Positions 18,775 to 43,453 of a DNA stretch of 64,000 bases are shown piece by piece. The position numbers and the translations under genes were made by a program. Source of the stretch: Rhodococcus tibetensis. Its GTDB lineage: Bacteria; Actinomycetota; Actinomycetes; Mycobacteriales; Mycobacteriaceae. The stretch's first letter is position 1. The number at the start of each line of letters is the position of its first letter. Location: positions 372,001 through 436,000 of the forward strand of contig NZ_JANFQF010000001.1 of NCBI RefSeq assembly GCF_024438035.1. The letters are read 5' to 3'. The notes under the pieces are model-generated. The model did no database searches, had not been told where the DNA came from, and worked only from the letters and a program-made list of their open reading frames with translations.

Positions 18775-19377
18775 ATGCCCCGCATTCCCGCAGTGGCCCC
18801 GGCGGACGCGAGCCCGTTGGTCAAGGTCGCGTACAAATTTGCTGCCCACAAATTCGACGAGGTCCCCGAGCCGTTCGCCGTGCTCGCCCATCACCGCAAA
18901 CTCTTCGTCGCGTCGGCGCGCCACGAGATGGCGGTGCAGAAGGCTTCGACCGTTCTTCCCGCGAATGTCCGCGAGGTGGCCGTGTACCGCGTCGCGTGGA
19001 CGATCGGCTGCTCGTGGTGTGTGGACTTCGGCACCATGCTGCAACGCCTCGACGGGCTGGACACGGCGAGGCTCGAAGACATCGGCAACTACGCCGACTC
19101 ACCGGCGTACAGCGAGGACGAACGTGCGGCCATCGCCTATGCCGACGCGATGACCGCAACACCCACCACCGTCACGGACGAACAGGTGGCCGACCTCGAA
19201 CGCCGTTTCGGCAGGGACGGCGTCGTCGAACTGTCGTATCAGATCGGGATCGAGAACATGCGCGCCCGGATGTATTCGGCTCTGGGCATCACCGAGCAGG
19301 GCTTCAGCACCGATTCGTGCCGGGTGCCGTGGGCCTCGGACGACGCCGGGGTCACGAAGGACGGTTCGGGAGTCTGA
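18775..19377 (+). CDS. Carboxymuconolactone decarboxylase/AhpD-like protein
   Basis: A 200-residue all-helical protein of the AhpD/CMD superfamily with the redox pair Cys79-x-x-Cys82 (GCSWCVDFGTML) and a downstream conserved helix EVAVYRVAW. AhpD-like members act as thiol peroxidases or reductants. ATG 18775 is used because GGAGGA ends 4 nt before it. CMD proteins are the usual regulatory target of ECF41 sigma factors; the promoter at 18699 and the convergent sigma gene fit this. Its 3' end overlaps the sigma gene's 3' end by 26 bp. Confidence 0.87.
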   Translation: MPRIPAVAPADASPLVKVAYKFAAHKFDEVPEPFAVLAHHRKLFVASARHEMAVQKASTVLPANVREVAVYRVAWTIGCSWCVDFGTMLQRLDGLDTARLEDIGNYADSPAYSEDERAAIAYADAMTATPTTVTDEQVADLERRFGRDGVVELSYQIGIENMRARMYSALGITEQGFSTDSCRVPWASDDAGVTKDGSGV

Positions 19378-20272
19378 TCCCGACGAGCTTCTCCGGATTC
19401 GCGATGTCGTACGCGGCGTAGACGAGTCCGTTCCGGACGGTGAACCCACCCACTCGCGGAGGCGAGCTGCGGTGGGTCCCGTCGGCGGCGATCCCGGAGC
19501 TGAAGAAACCGAGCTGGCCGTTGACCAGGACCGGCTGCATGGTGGTGAAGGCGGCGGCGCCGTACTTTCGGATGAGACCGAGGTAGAAACGTGCGAACCT
19601 GTCCGCTCCGCGGATGACGTTGACGGCGGTGCTCGTCGTGCCGTTGGCGTCGCCGATGACGAGGGCGCCGGGGTGCAGAGCCGAGACCACCGCATCGATG
19701 TCACCCGAGGCGAGGGCTTCGAGAAGTCGCTGCACCGCACGCGAATGTTCCTCGTCCGGCACCGCGGGAGTGGTTGCGGCGGCGGCTTTACGGGCGCGGG
19801 ACGCGAGCTGCCGCGCGGCCGGAACCGCGATTCCGAGCAGGTCTGCCACCTCGTCGAAAGGCACCCCGAAACCGTCGTGGAGAACGAAGGCGACACGTTG
19901 CTGTGGAGTGAGTGTGTCGAGCACGATCAGAGCTGCCAGTCGGTTGTCTTCCTCCTGCACCACAGCTTCGAGTGGATCCGGCTCCGCCGACGGTGCCAAC
20001 CCGGTGACGATAGGCTCTGGAAGCCACTGCCCGACATAGTGTTCCCGCCGCACTGCGGCCGACCGCAACCGGTCGAGGCAGATTCTGCCCACCACGGTGG
20101 TCAGCCAGCTTCGGAGGTCCCGGATACCCGTTGAGTTCTCTTCGTCCAGTCGCAGCCACGACTCCTGGACGGCATCCTCAGCATCGCTGACACTTCCGGT
20201 CAGCCGATAGGCGACCGACAACAGATGCCGCCGGTGAGTCTCGAATTCGTCTACCAGCGTCGCTGACGGCAT
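19352..20272 (-). CDS. ECF41-family (SigJ-like) RNA polymerase sigma factor
   Basis: A 306-residue extracytoplasmic-function sigma factor. Region 2 (YRLTGSVSDAEDAVQESWLRL) and region 4 (LTPQQRVAFVLHDGFGVPFDEVADLLGI) are followed by a C-terminal SnoaL-like domain of about 100 residues that works as a built-in regulator. The ECF41 signature NPDKL appears as NPEKL near the C-terminus. No anti-sigma gene is adjacent, as expected for this group. ATG 20272 is chosen because it gives the usual N-terminal spacing; the longer frame adds unconserved residues. Its probable target is the convergent CMD gene. Confidence 0.9.
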   Translation of the reverse strand: MPSATLVDEFETHRRHLLSVAYRLTGSVSDAEDAVQESWLRLDEENSTGIRDLRSWLTTVVGRICLDRLRSAAVRREHYVGQWLPEPIVTGLAPSAEPDPLEAVVQEEDNRLAALIVLDTLTPQQRVAFVLHDGFGVPFDEVADLLGIAVPAARQLASRARKAAAATTPAVPDEEHSRAVQRLLEALASGDIDAVVSALHPGALVIGDANGTTSTAVNVIRGADRFARFYLGLIRKYGAAAFTTMQPVLVNGQLGFFSSGIAADGTHRSSPPRVGGFTVRNGLVYAAYDIANPEKLVGIRLPNRPS

Positions 20273-20348
20273 GCCGACATCGTACGTCCGATCCAGACAT
20301 AAAATCCGTGGTGTGTATAACCGTTGACCCTGGTGGGGGGAGCGGACG

Positions 20349-20354
20349 TACTGT
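20349..20354 (+). promoter_or_regulatory. -10 element (TACTGT) of the sulfur operon
   Basis: TACTGT with TTGACC 19 bp upstream (20324-20329) is the best promoter before the Cys-rich leader. It predicts a start near 20361 and a 26-nt 5' leader. Confidence 0.5.
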
Positions 20355-20386
20355 GAGGCAACCACACGACGTCAGGGAGTCCTGCC

Positions 20387-20416
20387 ATGTTCCAGTGTTG
20401 TAGCTGTCGCAGCTGA
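20387..20416 (+). CDS. Cysteine-rich leader peptide (MFQCCSCRS)
   Basis: A 9-residue ORF, MFQCCSCRS, with three Cys codons among the last six. AGGGAG lies 7 nt upstream of the ATG. It precedes, by 138 bp, a sulfonate-type ABC transporter and monooxygenase operon. Poly-cysteine leader peptides that attenuate sulfur genes when cysteine is plentiful are known in mycobacteria. Here the start is not leaderless. The following GC-rich region can form several hairpins (one at 20464-20480). Confidence 0.7.
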   Translation: MFQCCSCRS

Positions 20417-20463
20417 CCTGGCTTTTCTGCACCCTTCTTTTCGCAGGCACTGTGCGACCGGCA

Positions 20464-20480
20464 GGGACCCCTCCGGTCCC
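20464..20480 (+). terminator. Hairpin between the Cys leader and the transporter operon
   Basis: GGGACC, 5-base loop, GGTCCC. This 6-bp stem is one of several possible folds in the 138-bp GC-rich leader. A role as attenuator is inferred, not shown. Confidence 0.4.
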
Positions 20481-20554
20481 GGGCCGAACTGTGCGCGCAC
20501 CACCCGACCCGCCGCCCTTTTCCGTGTGCGGGCATCACCCTGAGGAAGATCTCG

Positions 20555-21625
20555 ATGATTCGTCCACGTCTTGCGCGGACTCTGGCTGTCACGGCCGCCC
20601 TGCTTTCTTTCACCAGCCTCGCCGTCGCCTGCTCGAGCGACAAGACCGTCACGACCGCCGACGGTAAGACCGTCCTGCGCTACGAGGGAACCACCGGGCA
20701 GGTCTCGTTCTCGGAACTTGCCGCCGACCTCGGCTACTACCAGAAGGTCGAACTCAACTGGATCGGCGACAGCACCAGTGGGCCGCAGAGCATCCAGAAC
20801 GCCGCAACCGGCCAGACCGATTTCGGTGGGGCCTTCAACGGTGCGGTATTGAAGCTGGCCGCTGCAGATTCGCCCGTCACATCGGTCATCGGCTATTACG
20901 GCTCCGACAAGGAGACATTCAACGGGTACTACGTGCTCGAGGACAGCCCGATCCGCACCGCCCGGGACCTGATCGGCAAGAAGGTCGGAATGAACACCCT
21001 CGGCGCGCACCACGAGTTCCTGGTCCGTGAATGGCTGGCCCGTGAAGGCCTCACTCCGGACGAGATCAAGCAGGTCGAGCTCACCGTCGTGCCGCCGGTG
21101 AACACCGAACAGGCACTGCGGCAGGGGCAGGTCGACGTCGGAACGCTCGGGAGCGTGTTCCGGGACAAGGCAGTGGAAAAGGGCGGCATCCGCCCGCTGT
21201 TCACCGACGAGTCCATCTTCGGTTCGTTCACTTACGGCTCGCTGCTGTTCCGCAACGACTTCATCGCCAAGAACGAGGAGGCGGTGGCCGACTTCGTGCA
21301 GGGCACGGCTCGGGCGATCCGCTGGACCCAGACAACACCCCGCGACCAGGTGATCGCCAAGTACAAGGACATCATCACGAATCGCGGGCGCAACGAGAAC
21401 ACCGACCTCGTCGACTACTGGCGCTCGCCCGGTGTCGCCGGCCCCGGTGGAGTGATCACGGACCAGGAAATTCAGACGTGGACCGACTGGCTCGTGCGCA
21501 ACGGTGAACTCGAGGACGGCAAGCTCACACCGGCCGACGTGTACACGAACGAGTACAACCCGTATGCCAATGGCACGTACCACGCGGACAGCGGTCCCGA
21601 CGGGCAGGCCCTGGCCACGAAATGA
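20555..21625 (+). CDS. ABC transporter substrate-binding lipoprotein (SsuA/NMT1 type)
   Basis: A 356-residue exported lipoprotein: basic N-terminus, hydrophobic helix and lipobox LAVAC (Cys26). The mature part has the periplasmic-binding-protein type II fold of SsuA/TauA/NMT1 proteins, which capture alkylsulfonates, taurine, nitrate or thiamine precursors; the GDSTSGPQSIQNAATGQTDFG segment corresponds to the ligand-binding loop. It is the first structural gene of the operon (SBP, ATPase, permease, monooxygenase, small membrane protein). The context with a Cys leader and a DszA-like oxygenase favours an organosulfur ligand. Confidence 0.88.
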   Translation: MIRPRLARTLAVTAALLSFTSLAVACSSDKTVTTADGKTVLRYEGTTGQVSFSELAADLGYYQKVELNWIGDSTSGPQSIQNAATGQTDFGGAFNGAVLKLAAADSPVTSVIGYYGSDKETFNGYYVLEDSPIRTARDLIGKKVGMNTLGAHHEFLVREWLAREGLTPDEIKQVELTVVPPVNTEQALRQGQVDVGTLGSVFRDKAVEKGGIRPLFTDESIFGSFTYGSLLFRNDFIAKNEEAVADFVQGTARAIRWTQTTPRDQVIAKYKDIITNRGRNENTDLVDYWRSPGVAGPGGVITDQEIQTWTDWLVRNGELEDGKLTPADVYTNEYNPYANGTYHADSGPDGQALATK

Positions 21626-21667: not shown

Positions 21668-22504
21668 ATGAGCGCCACAGCCTCGGACCTCGAGCTGATC
21701 ACGACACCCAAACTCCGCCTCGAACACGTCACCAAACAGTTCGACGTGCGCGGGACGAAGGACAAGTTCACCGCAATCGAAGACATCGACATCGATCTCG
21801 CAGACGGTGAGTTCCTCGTCCTCGTCGGACCCAGCGGTTGCGGCAAGTCGACGTTGCTGGACCTTCTCGGAGGATTGAGCACGCCCACCTCGGGCCGGAT
21901 CCTCCTCGACGGAAAGCCGGTGACGGGACCGGGTCTCGACCGCGGCATCGTCTTCCAGCAGTACGCGCTGCTCCCGTGGCGCACGGCGCGGCACAACATC
22001 GAGTTCGGGTTGGAGGCCAAGGGGCTGCCCAAGAAGGAGCGCCGGAGTCTCGCAGAGCACTACCTCGAGTTGGTTGGCCTGCACGGATTCGGTGACCGGT
22101 ACCCGCACGAGTTGTCCGGCGGGATGAAGCAGCGTGTTGCTATTGCCCGTAGCCTCGCCTTCGATCCCGAAGTGCTGCTGATGGACGAGCCGTTCGCCGC
22201 CCTCGACGCGCAGACCCGCGAATCGCTCCAGGACGAACTGTTGCGCATCTGGAAAGCAACCGGAAAGACCATTCTGTTCATCACCCACGGCATCGACGAG
22301 GCCATCTACCTCGGGCAGCGGGTTGCGGTCCTGACTTCGCGGCCTGGACGGGTGAAGACGTTCGTCGACATCGACATCGACCGTAGTGGCGAGGACGTCC
22401 GTTCCAACGAACAGTTCCGGCAGTACCGGCACAAGATCTGGACGCTGTTGCACGGTGAAGTGGAGCGCGCACAGGTAATCGAGAAGGAGGAGGCTCATGT
22501 CTAG
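21668..22504 (+). CDS. ABC transporter ATP-binding protein (SsuB/TauB type)
   Basis: A 278-residue ATPase subunit. Walker A GPSGCGKS, signature LSGGMKQRVAIARSLAF, Walker B LLMDEPFAAL and the switch His in FITHGIDEA are intact. The short C-terminal tail and sequence put it with importers for sulfonates, taurine or nitrate. ATG 21668 follows GGAAGGA at good spacing. Its end overlaps the permease gene by 8 bp, so the two subunits are translationally coupled. Confidence 0.92.
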   Translation: MSATASDLELITTPKLRLEHVTKQFDVRGTKDKFTAIEDIDIDLADGEFLVLVGPSGCGKSTLLDLLGGLSTPTSGRILLDGKPVTGPGLDRGIVFQQYALLPWRTARHNIEFGLEAKGLPKKERRSLAEHYLELVGLHGFGDRYPHELSGGMKQRVAIARSLAFDPEVLLMDEPFAALDAQTRESLQDELLRIWKATGKTILFITHGIDEAIYLGQRVAVLTSRPGRVKTFVDIDIDRSGEDVRSNEQFRQYRHKIWTLLHGEVERAQVIEKEEAHV

Positions 22505-23390
22505 CGCACTCGCCACACCAGCGGACCTCGACCGGGCGCCCGTCGTCACCGCTCCGCCGTCGACCCGCGCAACGTCTCCCACACCGGAAGCCGTACCGGC
22601 GACGCCCGGCGCAGCGAAGCGCGCGGGTGCGGTGCTGGGACCCGTCGCCTGGCGAATCCTCAAGCCCTCCATCGCGATCGTCGCCTTTCTCGCATTGTGG
22701 GAGTTCGCACCCCGAGTCGGGCTGGTGGACGAGGTGTTCTTACCGCCCTTCAGTACGGTGATCGACGCATTCTTCGACCTGGCTGTCAGCGGTGAGCTGT
22801 GGCAGCACGTATCCGCGAGCCTTTCCCGCGCCCTGACCGGCTTCTTCGTGGCAGTCGCGATCGCGATCCCGCTGGGTATCGCCATCGCCTGGTATCGACC
22901 GGTGTCGGACTTCCTGAACCCGATCCTCGAACTATTCCGCAACACGGCGGCACTGGCCCTGCTGCCCGTCTTCATCCTGATCCTCGGCATCGGTGAGGAG
23001 TCGAAGATCGCGCTGGTGATCTACGCGTGCACCTTCCCGATCCTCCTCAACACGATTTCCGGTGTGCGCACCGTCGATCCGCTGTTGATCAAGTCCGCCT
23101 CGTCGTTGGGACTCTCGCCGGTGCGCCTGTTCCAGAAGGTGGTTCTGCCCGCCGCTGTTCCCACCATTTTCACCGGTATCCGCATGGCGGCGGCGTCGTC
23201 CATTCTCGTGTTGATCGCCGCCGAGATGGTCGGTGCCAAGGCCGGGCTCGGCTATCTGATCACCGCCTCGCAGTTCAACTTTCAGATCCCCAACATGTAC
23301 GCGGGTATCGTCGCGATCTCCGTTCTCGGGCTGACGCTCAACGCCGTTCTCGTACTGATCGAACGCAGGCTGTCCCGCTGGCGGGTCTAG
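22497..23390 (+). CDS. ABC transporter permease (SsuC/TauC type)
   Basis: A 297-residue membrane permease with about six helices after a Pro/Ala-rich cytoplasmic N-terminus of about 40 residues. The cytoplasmic coupling loop reads SASSLGLSPVRLFQKVVLPAAVPTIFTGIRMAA, the EAA motif that docks to the ATPase. It overlaps the ATPase gene and is followed 24 bp later by the monooxygenase, completing an import-and-oxidise unit. Confidence 0.92.
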   Translation: MSSALATPADLDRAPVVTAPPSTRATSPTPEAVPATPGAAKRAGAVLGPVAWRILKPSIAIVAFLALWEFAPRVGLVDEVFLPPFSTVIDAFFDLAVSGELWQHVSASLSRALTGFFVAVAIAIPLGIAIAWYRPVSDFLNPILELFRNTAALALLPVFILILGIGEESKIALVIYACTFPILLNTISGVRTVDPLLIKSASSLGLSPVRLFQKVVLPAAVPTIFTGIRMAAASSILVLIAAEMVGAKAGLGYLITASQFNFQIPNMYAGIVAISVLGLTLNAVLVLIERRLSRWRV

Positions 23391-23414: not shown

Positions 23415-24758
23415 ATGTCACAGAATTCCCAGTTCCACCTCAACGCGTTTCTCATGGGTGTGGGACATCACGAGGCGGCGTGGCGGCATCCGCGCACCGA
23501 GGCTCACCGCGTTCTGGACGTGAAGCACTTCCAGGAACTCGGGCGGATCGCGGAACGCGGCAAACTCGACTCCGTGTTCTTCGCCGACACACTCGCGGTC
23601 GGTCCGCGGCTCGAGCACAACACGCAGGCAATCTTCGAGCCCGTCACGCTGCTGTCGGCAATCGCTGTCGCCACCGAACACGTGGGTCTGATCGCCACGG
23701 CGTCCACGAGTTACGGCGATCCATACAGCCTGGCGCGGAAGTTCACCTCGCTCGACCACATCAGCGGTGGCCGGGCGGGGTGGAACATCGTGACGTCGGC
23801 AGGCGCGGACGAGGCGGCGAACTTCGGTGTCGACGGTATTCCCGCCCACAACGGAAGATACGAGCGGGCAGCGGAATTCGTCGACGTAACACTCGCGCTG
23901 TGGGACAGCTGGGAAGACGACGCGGTGGTGCTCGACCCGGACACCGGTTTGTTCGCCGACCCTGGGAAGGTTCACACGATCGACCACGACGGGCCGCGGT
24001 TCCAGGTCAGGGGGCCGCTGAATTCCCCGCGATCAACGCAGGGGCGTCCGCTGTTGGTGCAGGCCGGCTCTTCGGAGAGCGGCAGGGAGTTCGCGGCCCG
24101 GCACGCGGAGGCCGTCTTCACCGCGCAACGCACCCTCGCGCAGGGGCAGGAGTTCTACCGGGACCTGAAGGCGGGGGTGGTGAAGCACGGCCGGAATGCC
24201 GGTGATCTGAAAGTGCTGCCGGGCATCGTCCCGTTCATCGCCGACACCCAGGAGGAGGCGGAGGCGCTGGAGCAGTCGTTCACCGATCTGATCTCACCCG
24301 CGTACTCGCTGCGTCAGCTGTCCACGATGCTCGGCATCGATCTCACCGGGCATTCCCTCGACGCCCCGCTGCCACCCTTGCCGCCGCTGGACGAGATTCA
24401 AGGGAACAAGAGCCGGTACCAGCTGGTGAAGGATCTCGCCGAAGACGGCTCGCTCACCGTGCGGCAGCTGATCGGACTTCTCGGCGGCGGGCGTGGACAC
24501 CGCACCTTCGCCGGAACCCCCGAGCAGGTGGCGGACGAGCTGCAGATCTGGTTCGAGCAGGGCGCGGCCGATGGCTTCAAAATCATGCCGCCGTACCTGC
24601 CGGGAGGACTCGACGACTTCGTCGATCGGGTGGTTCCGATCCTGCAGCAGCGCGGACTGTTCCGGACGGAGTACACCGCGACCACCCTGCGCGGTCACTA
24701 CGGTCTCACGGACGTCGGTAACCGGTTCGCGGGCGCGGTCGACGAAGCGAGCGCATGA
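23415..24758 (+). CDS. FMN-dependent monooxygenase, NtaA/SnaA/DszA family (sulfur operon)
   Basis: A 447-residue luciferase-like monooxygenase paralogous to the one at 607-1905: LNAFLMGVGHHEAAWRHP, DHISGGRAGWNIVTSAGADEAANFG and the C-terminal ADGFKIMPPYLPGGLDDFVDRVVPILQQRGLFRTEY are shared. With FMNH2 it would cleave a C-S bond of an imported sulfone, sulfonate or thioether and release sulfite. No flavin reductase is encoded here, so reduced flavin must come from elsewhere. The stop overlaps the start of a 54-residue membrane-protein gene by 4 bp. Confidence 0.9.
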   Translation: MSQNSQFHLNAFLMGVGHHEAAWRHPRTEAHRVLDVKHFQELGRIAERGKLDSVFFADTLAVGPRLEHNTQAIFEPVTLLSAIAVATEHVGLIATASTSYGDPYSLARKFTSLDHISGGRAGWNIVTSAGADEAANFGVDGIPAHNGRYERAAEFVDVTLALWDSWEDDAVVLDPDTGLFADPGKVHTIDHDGPRFQVRGPLNSPRSTQGRPLLVQAGSSESGREFAARHAEAVFTAQRTLAQGQEFYRDLKAGVVKHGRNAGDLKVLPGIVPFIADTQEEAEALEQSFTDLISPAYSLRQLSTMLGIDLTGHSLDAPLPPLPPLDEIQGNKSRYQLVKDLAEDGSLTVRQLIGLLGGGRGHRTFAGTPEQVADELQIWFEQGAADGFKIMPPYLPGGLDDFVDRVVPILQQRGLFRTEYTATTLRGHYGLTDVGNRFAGAVDEASA

Positions 24759-35351: not shown

Positions 35352-35867
35352 TCAACGTGGCTCATGTTGTGAGCGCAGCCATTTGCGTATACGTCCGCGG
35401 GCGTTGCTGTAGGGCGATGCGGTGTTGAGCTGAATCATCCGGCCGGCCGTATATTTCTTGTACCAGGGCTTGGCGTACAACTCCTCATTGCTCATCGAGT
35501 CGATCAATGCCACGATCCGGCTCTCGGCCGCGGAGAGCCGCTCGAGCAGCTCGGCCCACGACTCCGACGCACAATTGCGGTAGAAGCTCTGGGCGAGCTC
35601 TCCGAGTTGGCTCCAGGTGTACCCCGTCGCTGGGAACTCCGGTTCGATTCCGAGAGCGCGGTCGTGGTGCCAAGTGAGCACCAGTTCGTTCCAGCCAATG
35701 AGATAGGCGACCAGGTCGGCTGGACTGATCAGCGTCCCAGTTGAGTGCCCGGGCAGCGACCGCTCCCGCGACCGTTCCGGCGGCACCCGCGCGAGATCGG
35801 CAACGAGCTTGATGTAATTGGCATCGATCGCGGTCAGCAAGCTGGCTTTGTCGTTCGGAACCGCCAT
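35352..35867 (-). CDS. ClbS/DfsB family four-helix bundle protein
   Basis: A 171-residue protein of the DinB-like ClbS/DfsB family: MAVPNDKASLLTAIDANYIKLVADLARVP, LVAYLIGWNELVLTWHHDRA, and NTASPYSNARGRIRKWLR. ClbS deactivates the genotoxin colibactin; most members are unassigned. A GAGGTGAGGG precedes ATG 35867. The flanking 35147-35351 and 35868-36066 stretches (about 200 bp each) show no convincing gene. Confidence 0.85.
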   Translation of the reverse strand: MAVPNDKASLLTAIDANYIKLVADLARVPPERSRERSLPGHSTGTLISPADLVAYLIGWNELVLTWHHDRALGIEPEFPATGYTWSQLGELAQSFYRNCASESWAELLERLSAAESRIVALIDSMSNEELYAKPWYKKYTAGRMIQLNTASPYSNARGRIRKWLRSQHEPR

Positions 35868-42413: not shown

Positions 42414-43200
<787 letters not shown>

Positions 43201-43453
43201 CTTCGTCGGGACTCCGGTACCCGCGGGACGAGGTTTGGCGCGGCGGGCCGGATGTGGCCGATGTTTGCTCGACCGCTGACGACGGTAACGGGCCGAGGCC
43301 TCAGTGTCACCATTTGATAACGCAGCGTGTCCGTGCCTGATGCGGCCCACTATTCGAGGCGCTGCGGACTCTTCCCAGCTAGTGGCGATGAGACGTGCCT
43401 ATCGCCGAGCCGTTGCCCTTCTGTTACCGAGCCGTTATGTGAGTAACGTCACA

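Follow-up and report, generated by a model that had tools for sequence, protein, structure and literature searches.

Leaderless short open reading frames (sORFs) rich in cysteine codons reportedly act as attenuators in Mycobacterium, the polycysteine type attributed to Canestrari 2020. Cysteine-rich leaders have a documented mycobacterial precedent (PMC1262725, PMC4633059, PMC9094748, PMC13236596), as the initial annotation of the DNA studied here had stated, and the three loci shown in Figure 7 of Shell 2015 (PMC4633059) are cysA2, Rv0485 and nirA. Outside the mycobacteria, ribosome-mediated attenuation has been proposed for uORFC-8-2 (PMC8632094), and eight leader peptides have been described in Streptomyces lividans, none of them assigned to cysteine (PMC8079986). 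The S. lividans leader before metNIQ, classed there as methionine-dependent, carries three cysteines near its end (ARCMCRRMCAF; Table 4 of PMC8079986) and could be a cysteine sensor. The name Rhodococcus does not occur in the text of PMC1262725, and a search that lay outside most subscription papers found no earlier report of a cysteine leader before the operon described below.

The window analysed here, a stretch of 64,000 nucleotides from Rhodococcus tibetensis, contains a 9-codon ORF that is likely to be the gene of a cysteine-responsive leader peptide, situated ahead of a sulfonate-uptake/monooxygenase operon:

19352..20272, minus strand: SigJ-like ECF sigma factor, divergent (PRK09636, 376.8 bits; cut-off 271)
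20324..20354, plus strand: putative promoter (-35-like TTGACC at 20324-20329, -10-like TACTGT at 20349-20354, spacing 19 nt)
20374..20379, plus strand: Shine-Dalgarno (SD) sequence of the leader, AGGGAG, 7 nt 5' of the leader ATG
20387..20416, plus strand: leader ORF MFQCCSCRS (UGU Cys codons 4, 5 and 7; stop UGA)
20417..20554, plus strand: untranslated spacer of 138 nt, with a pyrimidine-rich start, C-rich and G-poor; candidate read-out region
20542..20548, plus strand: SD of the first operon gene, GAGGAAG
20555..21625, plus strand: NMT1/SsuA-like substrate-binding lipoprotein (SBP)
21668..22504, plus strand: ABC transporter ATPase, Ssu/Tau/nitrate type
22497..23390, plus strand: ABC transporter permease, SsuC/TauC type
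23415..24758, plus strand: FMN-dependent monooxygenase, NtaA/DmoA family TIGR03860 (575.8 bits; cut-off 279.7)

The leader reads ATG TTC CAG TGT TGT AGC TGT CGC AGC TGA at 20387-20416, and both the ORF and its own ribosome-binding site (RBS), as proposed initially, are confirmed. A purine-rich SD-like run stands at normal spacing ahead of all 30 leaders listed in this study. The leader transcript is predicted to begin near 20361, which would leave a 5' UTR of roughly 26 nt. The further proposal that the leader has its own promoter finds partial support: a block with -35-like and -10-like elements is conserved in alignment A1 (TTGACC in 7 of 10 rows, a TAYnKT -10-like hexamer in 10 of 10), but a strict sigma-70 scan returned no promoter site at the leader locus. 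Longer in-frame leaders were rejected; the TTG-started extensions at L003-L012 and L037 begin within the -35 box, and the window has none.

The operon had been described as encoding an SsuABC-type transporter and a DszA-type monooxygenase. SBP, ATPase and permease are indeed present, and the top solved relatives of the SBP are two SsuA-type sulfonate-binding proteins (E ~1e-9); the SBP nevertheless scores 81.5 bits against TIGR01728 (SsuA), below the cut-off of 163.5, and the first designation therefore holds at the level of the superfamily. The monooxygenase is related to DszA (chain 5tlc, E 1.5e-93), but DszA ranks sixth among 22 solved matches and is not the closest solved relative, the family being TIGR03860. 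The SBP is 91-92% identical in R. opacus, R. jostii, R. koreensis and R. wratislaviensis, and 95% identical in one Rhodococcus congener. In the opacus/jostii/koreensis/wratislaviensis group a second SBP gene, ∼65% identical, lies right behind the first (L004, L005, L032-L036); unlike that group, the window has a single SBP gene. SBP paralogues with ∼50-62% identity and one TAG in the matched frame were also encountered (G017:C889, G026:C25, G005:C1:1827589 and G004:C20).

Conservation of the leader was surveyed in the regions upstream of 90 of the 120 listed SBP matches (E ≤1e-60) from 301 genomes of the family, scoring SD-led sORFs of 6-20 aa with at least two Cys within the last 7 residues, with expected counts taken from dinucleotide shuffles and antisense strands used as controls. 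Such an sORF is found at 20/21 Rhodococcus loci (0.26 expected; antisense 0/21), at 11/15 loci of the sister genus g27 (0.07 expected), at 2/4 of the sister genus g22 (0.02 expected), at 3/5 of the sister genus g20 (0.00 expected) and at 2/45 other loci (0.39 expected), the last set including the Rhodococcus paralogue L115; because many loci are closely related, these counts are not independent trials. Antisense controls yielded none in 90 loci. A Cys-rich, SD-led leader ahead of this alternative-sulfur operon, the central claim of the initial annotation, is thus real at 20 of 21 Rhodococcus loci; at the remaining one (L021) the operon is present and the sORF absent, as it is from 43 of the 45 other SBP loci. 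Of the six loci without the sORF in g27 and g20, five are paralogues at 56-60% identity, and the remaining one, L071, shows 72% identity. The SBP itself was found at the E ≤1e-60 level in 21 of 28 Rhodococcus genomes searched. The pattern ATG-TTY-SAR-TGY-N6-TGY-MG has one match in the 5.8 Mb genome, and a reversed control pattern has none.

Across lineages the peptide changes while the Cys codons and their placement near the stop are kept: variants include MFQCCSCRS, MFQCSSCRS, MFQCFGCRS, MPQCSSCRS, MFECCSCRS, VFSSCRCCR, VYECSECCR, VSECRLCCR, VRSCPCCR, MPSCRLCV, MSSCCLCV and, in the erythropolis group, VFRSFPLMSLNCCR, which has two Cys codons only. Most leaders are 8-9 codons long, with 14 codons in the erythropolis group and 17 in L022. 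In an alignment of 13 leaders (A2), invariant columns number 25 of 30 in the sORF and 27 of 121 in the spacer; codons 1, 2, 4, 7 and 9 are identical in 13/13, as is the stop, and codon 8 (Arg) shows synonymous changes only. As codon 5 encodes Cys in 4/13, the conserved core consists of two cysteines (Cys4 and Cys7), not three.

Codon choice within the leaders is distinctive. The 30 leaders comprise 17 distinct ORFs, whose Cys codons number 37 UGU : 5 UGC, compared with 17 UGU : 170 UGC in 77 host ORFs, which were drawn from the window and eight other stretches of its own genome and picked by size and codon-position GC (Fisher 3.7e-24, ignoring shared ancestry). Other T/C-ending codons of the leaders number 16 T : 54 C (p 1.2e-11, ancestry again ignored), and T/(T+C) in the spacer is 0.33; the window's leader alone, with UGU:UGC of 3:0, gives p 0.001. 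These counts cover the leaders outside L041-L049. Ten lineage representatives give 25:1 but omit most UGC-bearing leaders (L037, L073, L075), and 37:5 is the preferred figure. Wobble reading of UGU would plausibly heighten the sensitivity of the ribosome to depletion of charged tRNA-Cys.

Given conservation far above chance, the leader most likely signals the turn to poor sulfur sources once cysteine becomes scarce. We infer the following course of translation and stalling, and with it the direction of control. The leader would be translated from its own SD; with charged Cys-tRNA ample, ribosomes would read through the UGU triplets and terminate translation 138 nt ahead of the operon, keeping its expression low; with Cys-tRNA short, a ribosome would stall on the UGU triplets within codons 4-7, and expression of the sulfonate-uptake/monooxygenase operon would follow.

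The target is characterized by expression data from R. qingshengii IGTS8, in which proteins were compared during growth on dibenzothiophene and on sulfate (PMC8557817). Table 1 of that study lists peg3410 (monooxygenase), peg3412 (TauB, the ATPase), peg3413 (a sulfonate SBP) and peg3414 (SigJ, log2 fold change 2.0 to 2.5) with log2 fold changes >2 without sulfate; peg3411 is missing from its upregulated list. The erythropolis-group locus L130, with leader VFRSFPLMSLNCCR, has the order monooxygenase, permease, ATPase, SBP and divergent SigJ, and gene order suggests that the IGTS8 cluster and that of L130 are the same. An operon for alternative sulfur sources, as first proposed, is accordingly supported by the induction of its likely orthologue without sulfate (PMC8557817). 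In IGTS8 the promoter could be the point at which induction acts, and the word 'leader' appears nowhere in that paper.

How a stall would be read out is less clear-cut. With no intrinsic terminator-like site at 20200-20700, attenuation by intrinsic terminator (trp type, or that of uORFC-8-2) was rejected. A known riboswitch or catalogued leader was likewise rejected, as the leader locus matches no curated RNA family in Rfam; in five related loci the lone match, in L043, is far under the gathering score and away from the leader. The sole Rfam match in the window is a c-di-AMP riboswitch (ydaO/yuaA leader) at 43005-43218 on the minus strand (52.1 bits, above gathering). Regulatory hairpins had been postulated at 20417-20554, but fold energies do not differ from those of shuffled sequences (z-scores 0.34 and 0.13), and simulated stalling frees the operon RBS inconsistently. 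The covariation analysis that had been suggested for these hairpins gave little sign of a structured RNA element: RNAalifold put the covariation term at -0.38 kcal/mol, and 6 of 40 predicted pairs show a two-sided change.

Within the preferred explanation, one tentative read-out is translational attenuation as in M. smegmatis, a mechanism reported for mycobacterial Cys genes (PMC13236596): without a stall, RNA structure would mask the operon SD, and a stalled ribosome would block that pairing. When all RNA up to the stall is blocked in simulation, the cost of opening the RBS in the window falls by 2.75 kcal/mol (15 shuffles, -0.24 ± 0.69), and the same lean is seen for L038 (5.58 vs 1.49 ± 2.45), L070 (3.63 vs 0.67 ± 1.45) and L078 (7.67 vs 3.61 ± 1.69), which lie 1.7-2.4 SD above the null. 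Over the 22 of 30 leaders simulated in this way (six near-duplicates and two with an unclear gene start set aside), however, mean relief is 0.23 kcal/mol, against 0.28 in shuffles. Blocking the ribosome footprint alone, simulated for 20 leaders, has no effect in the window (0.14 vs 0.10) and the wrong sign in five erythropolis-group leaders (-1.03 to -1.25 kcal/mol). A duplex between SD and leader reaches p ≤0.05 for one segment in 4 of the 28 leaders assessed (out of 30), about what chance gives with three segments. Tested in these three ways, RBS sequestration is unsupported across species, although the window by itself shows the 2.75 kcal/mol effect. Just 5' of the SBP start at L013, L014, L019 and L020, CUUC occurs on each side of the SD (CUUCUACAGGAAGnnnCUUCAUG-like), an arrangement that could form two alternative small SD hairpins.

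The other read-out, to which we give nearly the same provisional credence, is Rho-dependent attenuation, in which the C-rich, G-poor spacer would serve as a Rho loading site and ribosome position would decide termination before the operon. The excess of C over G in the spacer averages 0.150 (n=29, minimum 0.091), against 0.041 in 48 regions upstream of SBP genes that were taken as leader-free and are not proven transcripts (p 1.3e-10); the comparison lacks phylogenetic independence, a possible sORF occurs in L101 and L126, both among the 48, and the regions may hold promoters. The lack of an intrinsic terminator at 20200-20700 fits Rho, which has also been proposed for mycobacterial cys operons, although its authors call that prediction 'rather weak' (PMC1262725). 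C-G excess alone does not prove Rho. A ribosome at Cys4-7, moreover, covers few spacer nucleotides, and protection from Rho would therefore have to act via RNA folding or coupling. Since the tests of read-out are split, we commit to Cys-tRNA sensing and regard RBS release and relief from Rho as about equally likely.

The same genome has another three poly-Cys leaders, none of them annotated and each with an RHxDL/RTVDL motif, chosen by motif, Cys run and downstream genes:

L068:2803-2874, plus strand: poly-Cys leader
L065, position 15142, minus strand: poly-Cys leader
L142, position 3015, minus strand: poly-Cys leader

One of them, GTG-ARRHVDLKRVCSCCCLLCCVQ, found in a scan of sulfur loci of the genome, lies 5' of a sulfite/nitrite reductase gene; another, MLTRRRTVDLCRLGACCCTCC, lies 5' of a DUF4395 gene and, behind it, a two-domain rhodanese gene, which we label cysA2-like; and MTHTARSTWRRRHIDLCRTKSCGC lies 5' of an ABC permease/ATPase (ABC importer). 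The first two settings resemble the nirA and cysA2 loci in Figure 7 of PMC4633059. All three leaders are 21-24 aa long, with an Arg-His/Thr-x-Asp-Leu motif ahead of the Cys codons (the 'RHxDLCR-type', a motif label of our own), and their UGU:UGC ratio is 6:9 (p 0.003 vs the genome, ancestry ignored). The same scans yielded two more Cys-rich sORFs, each shortly ahead of a long ORF (L065, 16926, plus strand; L153, 1201, minus strand), as well as others within long ORFs. The Arg-His/Thr-x-Asp-Leu stretch is absent from the 17 distinct leaders of the operon studied here, and the window leader is probably a lineage apart. Together, the four form a candidate cysteine-responsive set, presumably sharing the same Cys-tRNA signal.

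These differences raise the question of whether the window leader belongs to a separate class of cysteine sensor, defined by a very short, SD-started UGU leader, a trigger set by codon choice and a Rho read-out in a C-rich spacer. Such a leader would trigger its operon at another cysteine level than do the cell's RHxDLCR-type leaders with their mixture of UGC and UGU. We consider this doubtful; the features that would mark a variant, namely the SD start, the length of mostly 8-9 codons, the UGU bias and the target operon, are unproven as such. The UGU bias does allow a direct test of synonymous Cys codon choice as the threshold of a leader-peptide switch.

Control by the promoter alone, through a sulfur regulator and/or the SigJ-like factor, with the sORF as a relic or a means of keeping ribosomes on the RNA, is improbable, although several observations point to the promoter. 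DNA is conserved around and upstream of the -35 element: at 20300-20329, upstream of and across that element, TAAAATC...AACCGTTGACC recurs in many Rhodococcus, with similar sequence at some loci of other genera, possibly as an operator common to the operon and the divergent SigJ-like gene. SigJ is co-induced in IGTS8 (PMC8557817), and sulfur repression of dsz in that strain has been ascribed to a putative repressor site in the promoter (PMC9426449). SigJ is also adjacent and divergent at 9 of 18 loci tested, all nine of which have the sORF; L040 among the 18 is not assessable, and L133 and L038 seem to represent a single contig. Yet among the eight loci that could be assessed and lack SigJ next door, three carry the sORF (L131, L137 and L039, the last with a SigJ homologue ∼3.6 kb off) and five lack it (L134, L135, L136, L138 and L139), so that the two features are separable though associated, and Cys4, Cys7 and the rare Cys codon persist amid variable flanking residues. 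The association leaves room for promoter-level control in addition to the leader, the SigJ-like gene itself probably being a co-regulated neighbour outside the leader proper. That the operon would switch on only when Cys-tRNA is short, as initially proposed, is therefore too strong, since the conserved upstream DNA and the co-induced SigJ-like factor suggest a second control at the promoter.

It is very unlikely that the CxxC peptide itself, rather than its codons, is the active element (through metal or redox binding, or as an arrest peptide). CxxC spacing occurs in many leaders (MFQCxxCRS, VYECSECCR, MPSCRLCV), and in 13 of the 17 distinct leaders the final Cys is followed directly by Arg; the spacing is broken, however, in VFSSCRCCR and LNCCR, and the bias extends to codon choice, beyond the residue. 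A chain of 8-9 residues is, moreover, still within the ribosome. A chance origin can be dismissed at the level of conservation by the 90-locus survey (notably its Rhodococcus counts), even though short ORFs are frequent in any sequence and the window has a second such frame, a GTG-started sORF at 35369 (plus strand) with at least three Cys, 3 of them near the stop, a weak SD and no long ORF within 350 nt downstream, which is itself probably a chance occurrence.

If Cys-tRNA sensing by this leader is borne out, sulfonate-type sulfur use in Rhodococcus would be gated directly by the supply of cysteine-tRNA and not by sulfate itself, and leader-peptide control would be widened from cysteine synthesis to the scavenging of poor sulfur sources. 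It would also bear on the shut-off of alternative sulfur use by cysteine or sulfate in industrial desulfurizing bacteria.

The locus shows two features of cysteine-responsive, ribosome-mediated leader-peptide attenuators in the broad sense, a conserved short ORF of clustered Cys codons and its placement first before genes of matching metabolism, and probably represents a known kind of switch at a target for which we found no earlier report. It differs from its own genome's RHxDLCR-type leaders (21-24 aa, mixed UGU:UGC) in having 9 codons and UGU only. Like uORFC-8-2, which precedes cysS in Rhodobacterales, it has conserved Cys codons, but that element has an intrinsic terminator and is dominated by UGC, whereas the Rhodococcus leader is terminator-free and dominated by UGU (PMC8632094). 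The leaders of Seliverstov 2005 share with it Cys runs near the stop and the lack of a terminator hairpin; their targets, the mycobacterial and Propionibacterium cys operons and Bifidobacterium cbs, are unlike the Rhodococcus target (PMC1262725). That target, a sulfonate/monooxygenase operon, also differs from cysA2, Rv0485 and nirA (PMC4633059). With the Mycobacterium polycysteine attenuators, the leader has in common a clustered-Cys short ORF as first cistron of a sulfur operon and, as proposed here, cysteine-responsive control. In contrast to that leaderless type, it is SD-led with a predicted 5' UTR, mostly 8-9 codons long, and devoid of the RHxDLCR motif; judged from sequence, the SD-like runs ahead of 30/30 leaders and the predicted 26-nt 5' UTR argue against classing it as a 'leaderless polycysteine sORF'. 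It appears to function like the mycobacterial cysteine-responsive leader peptides.
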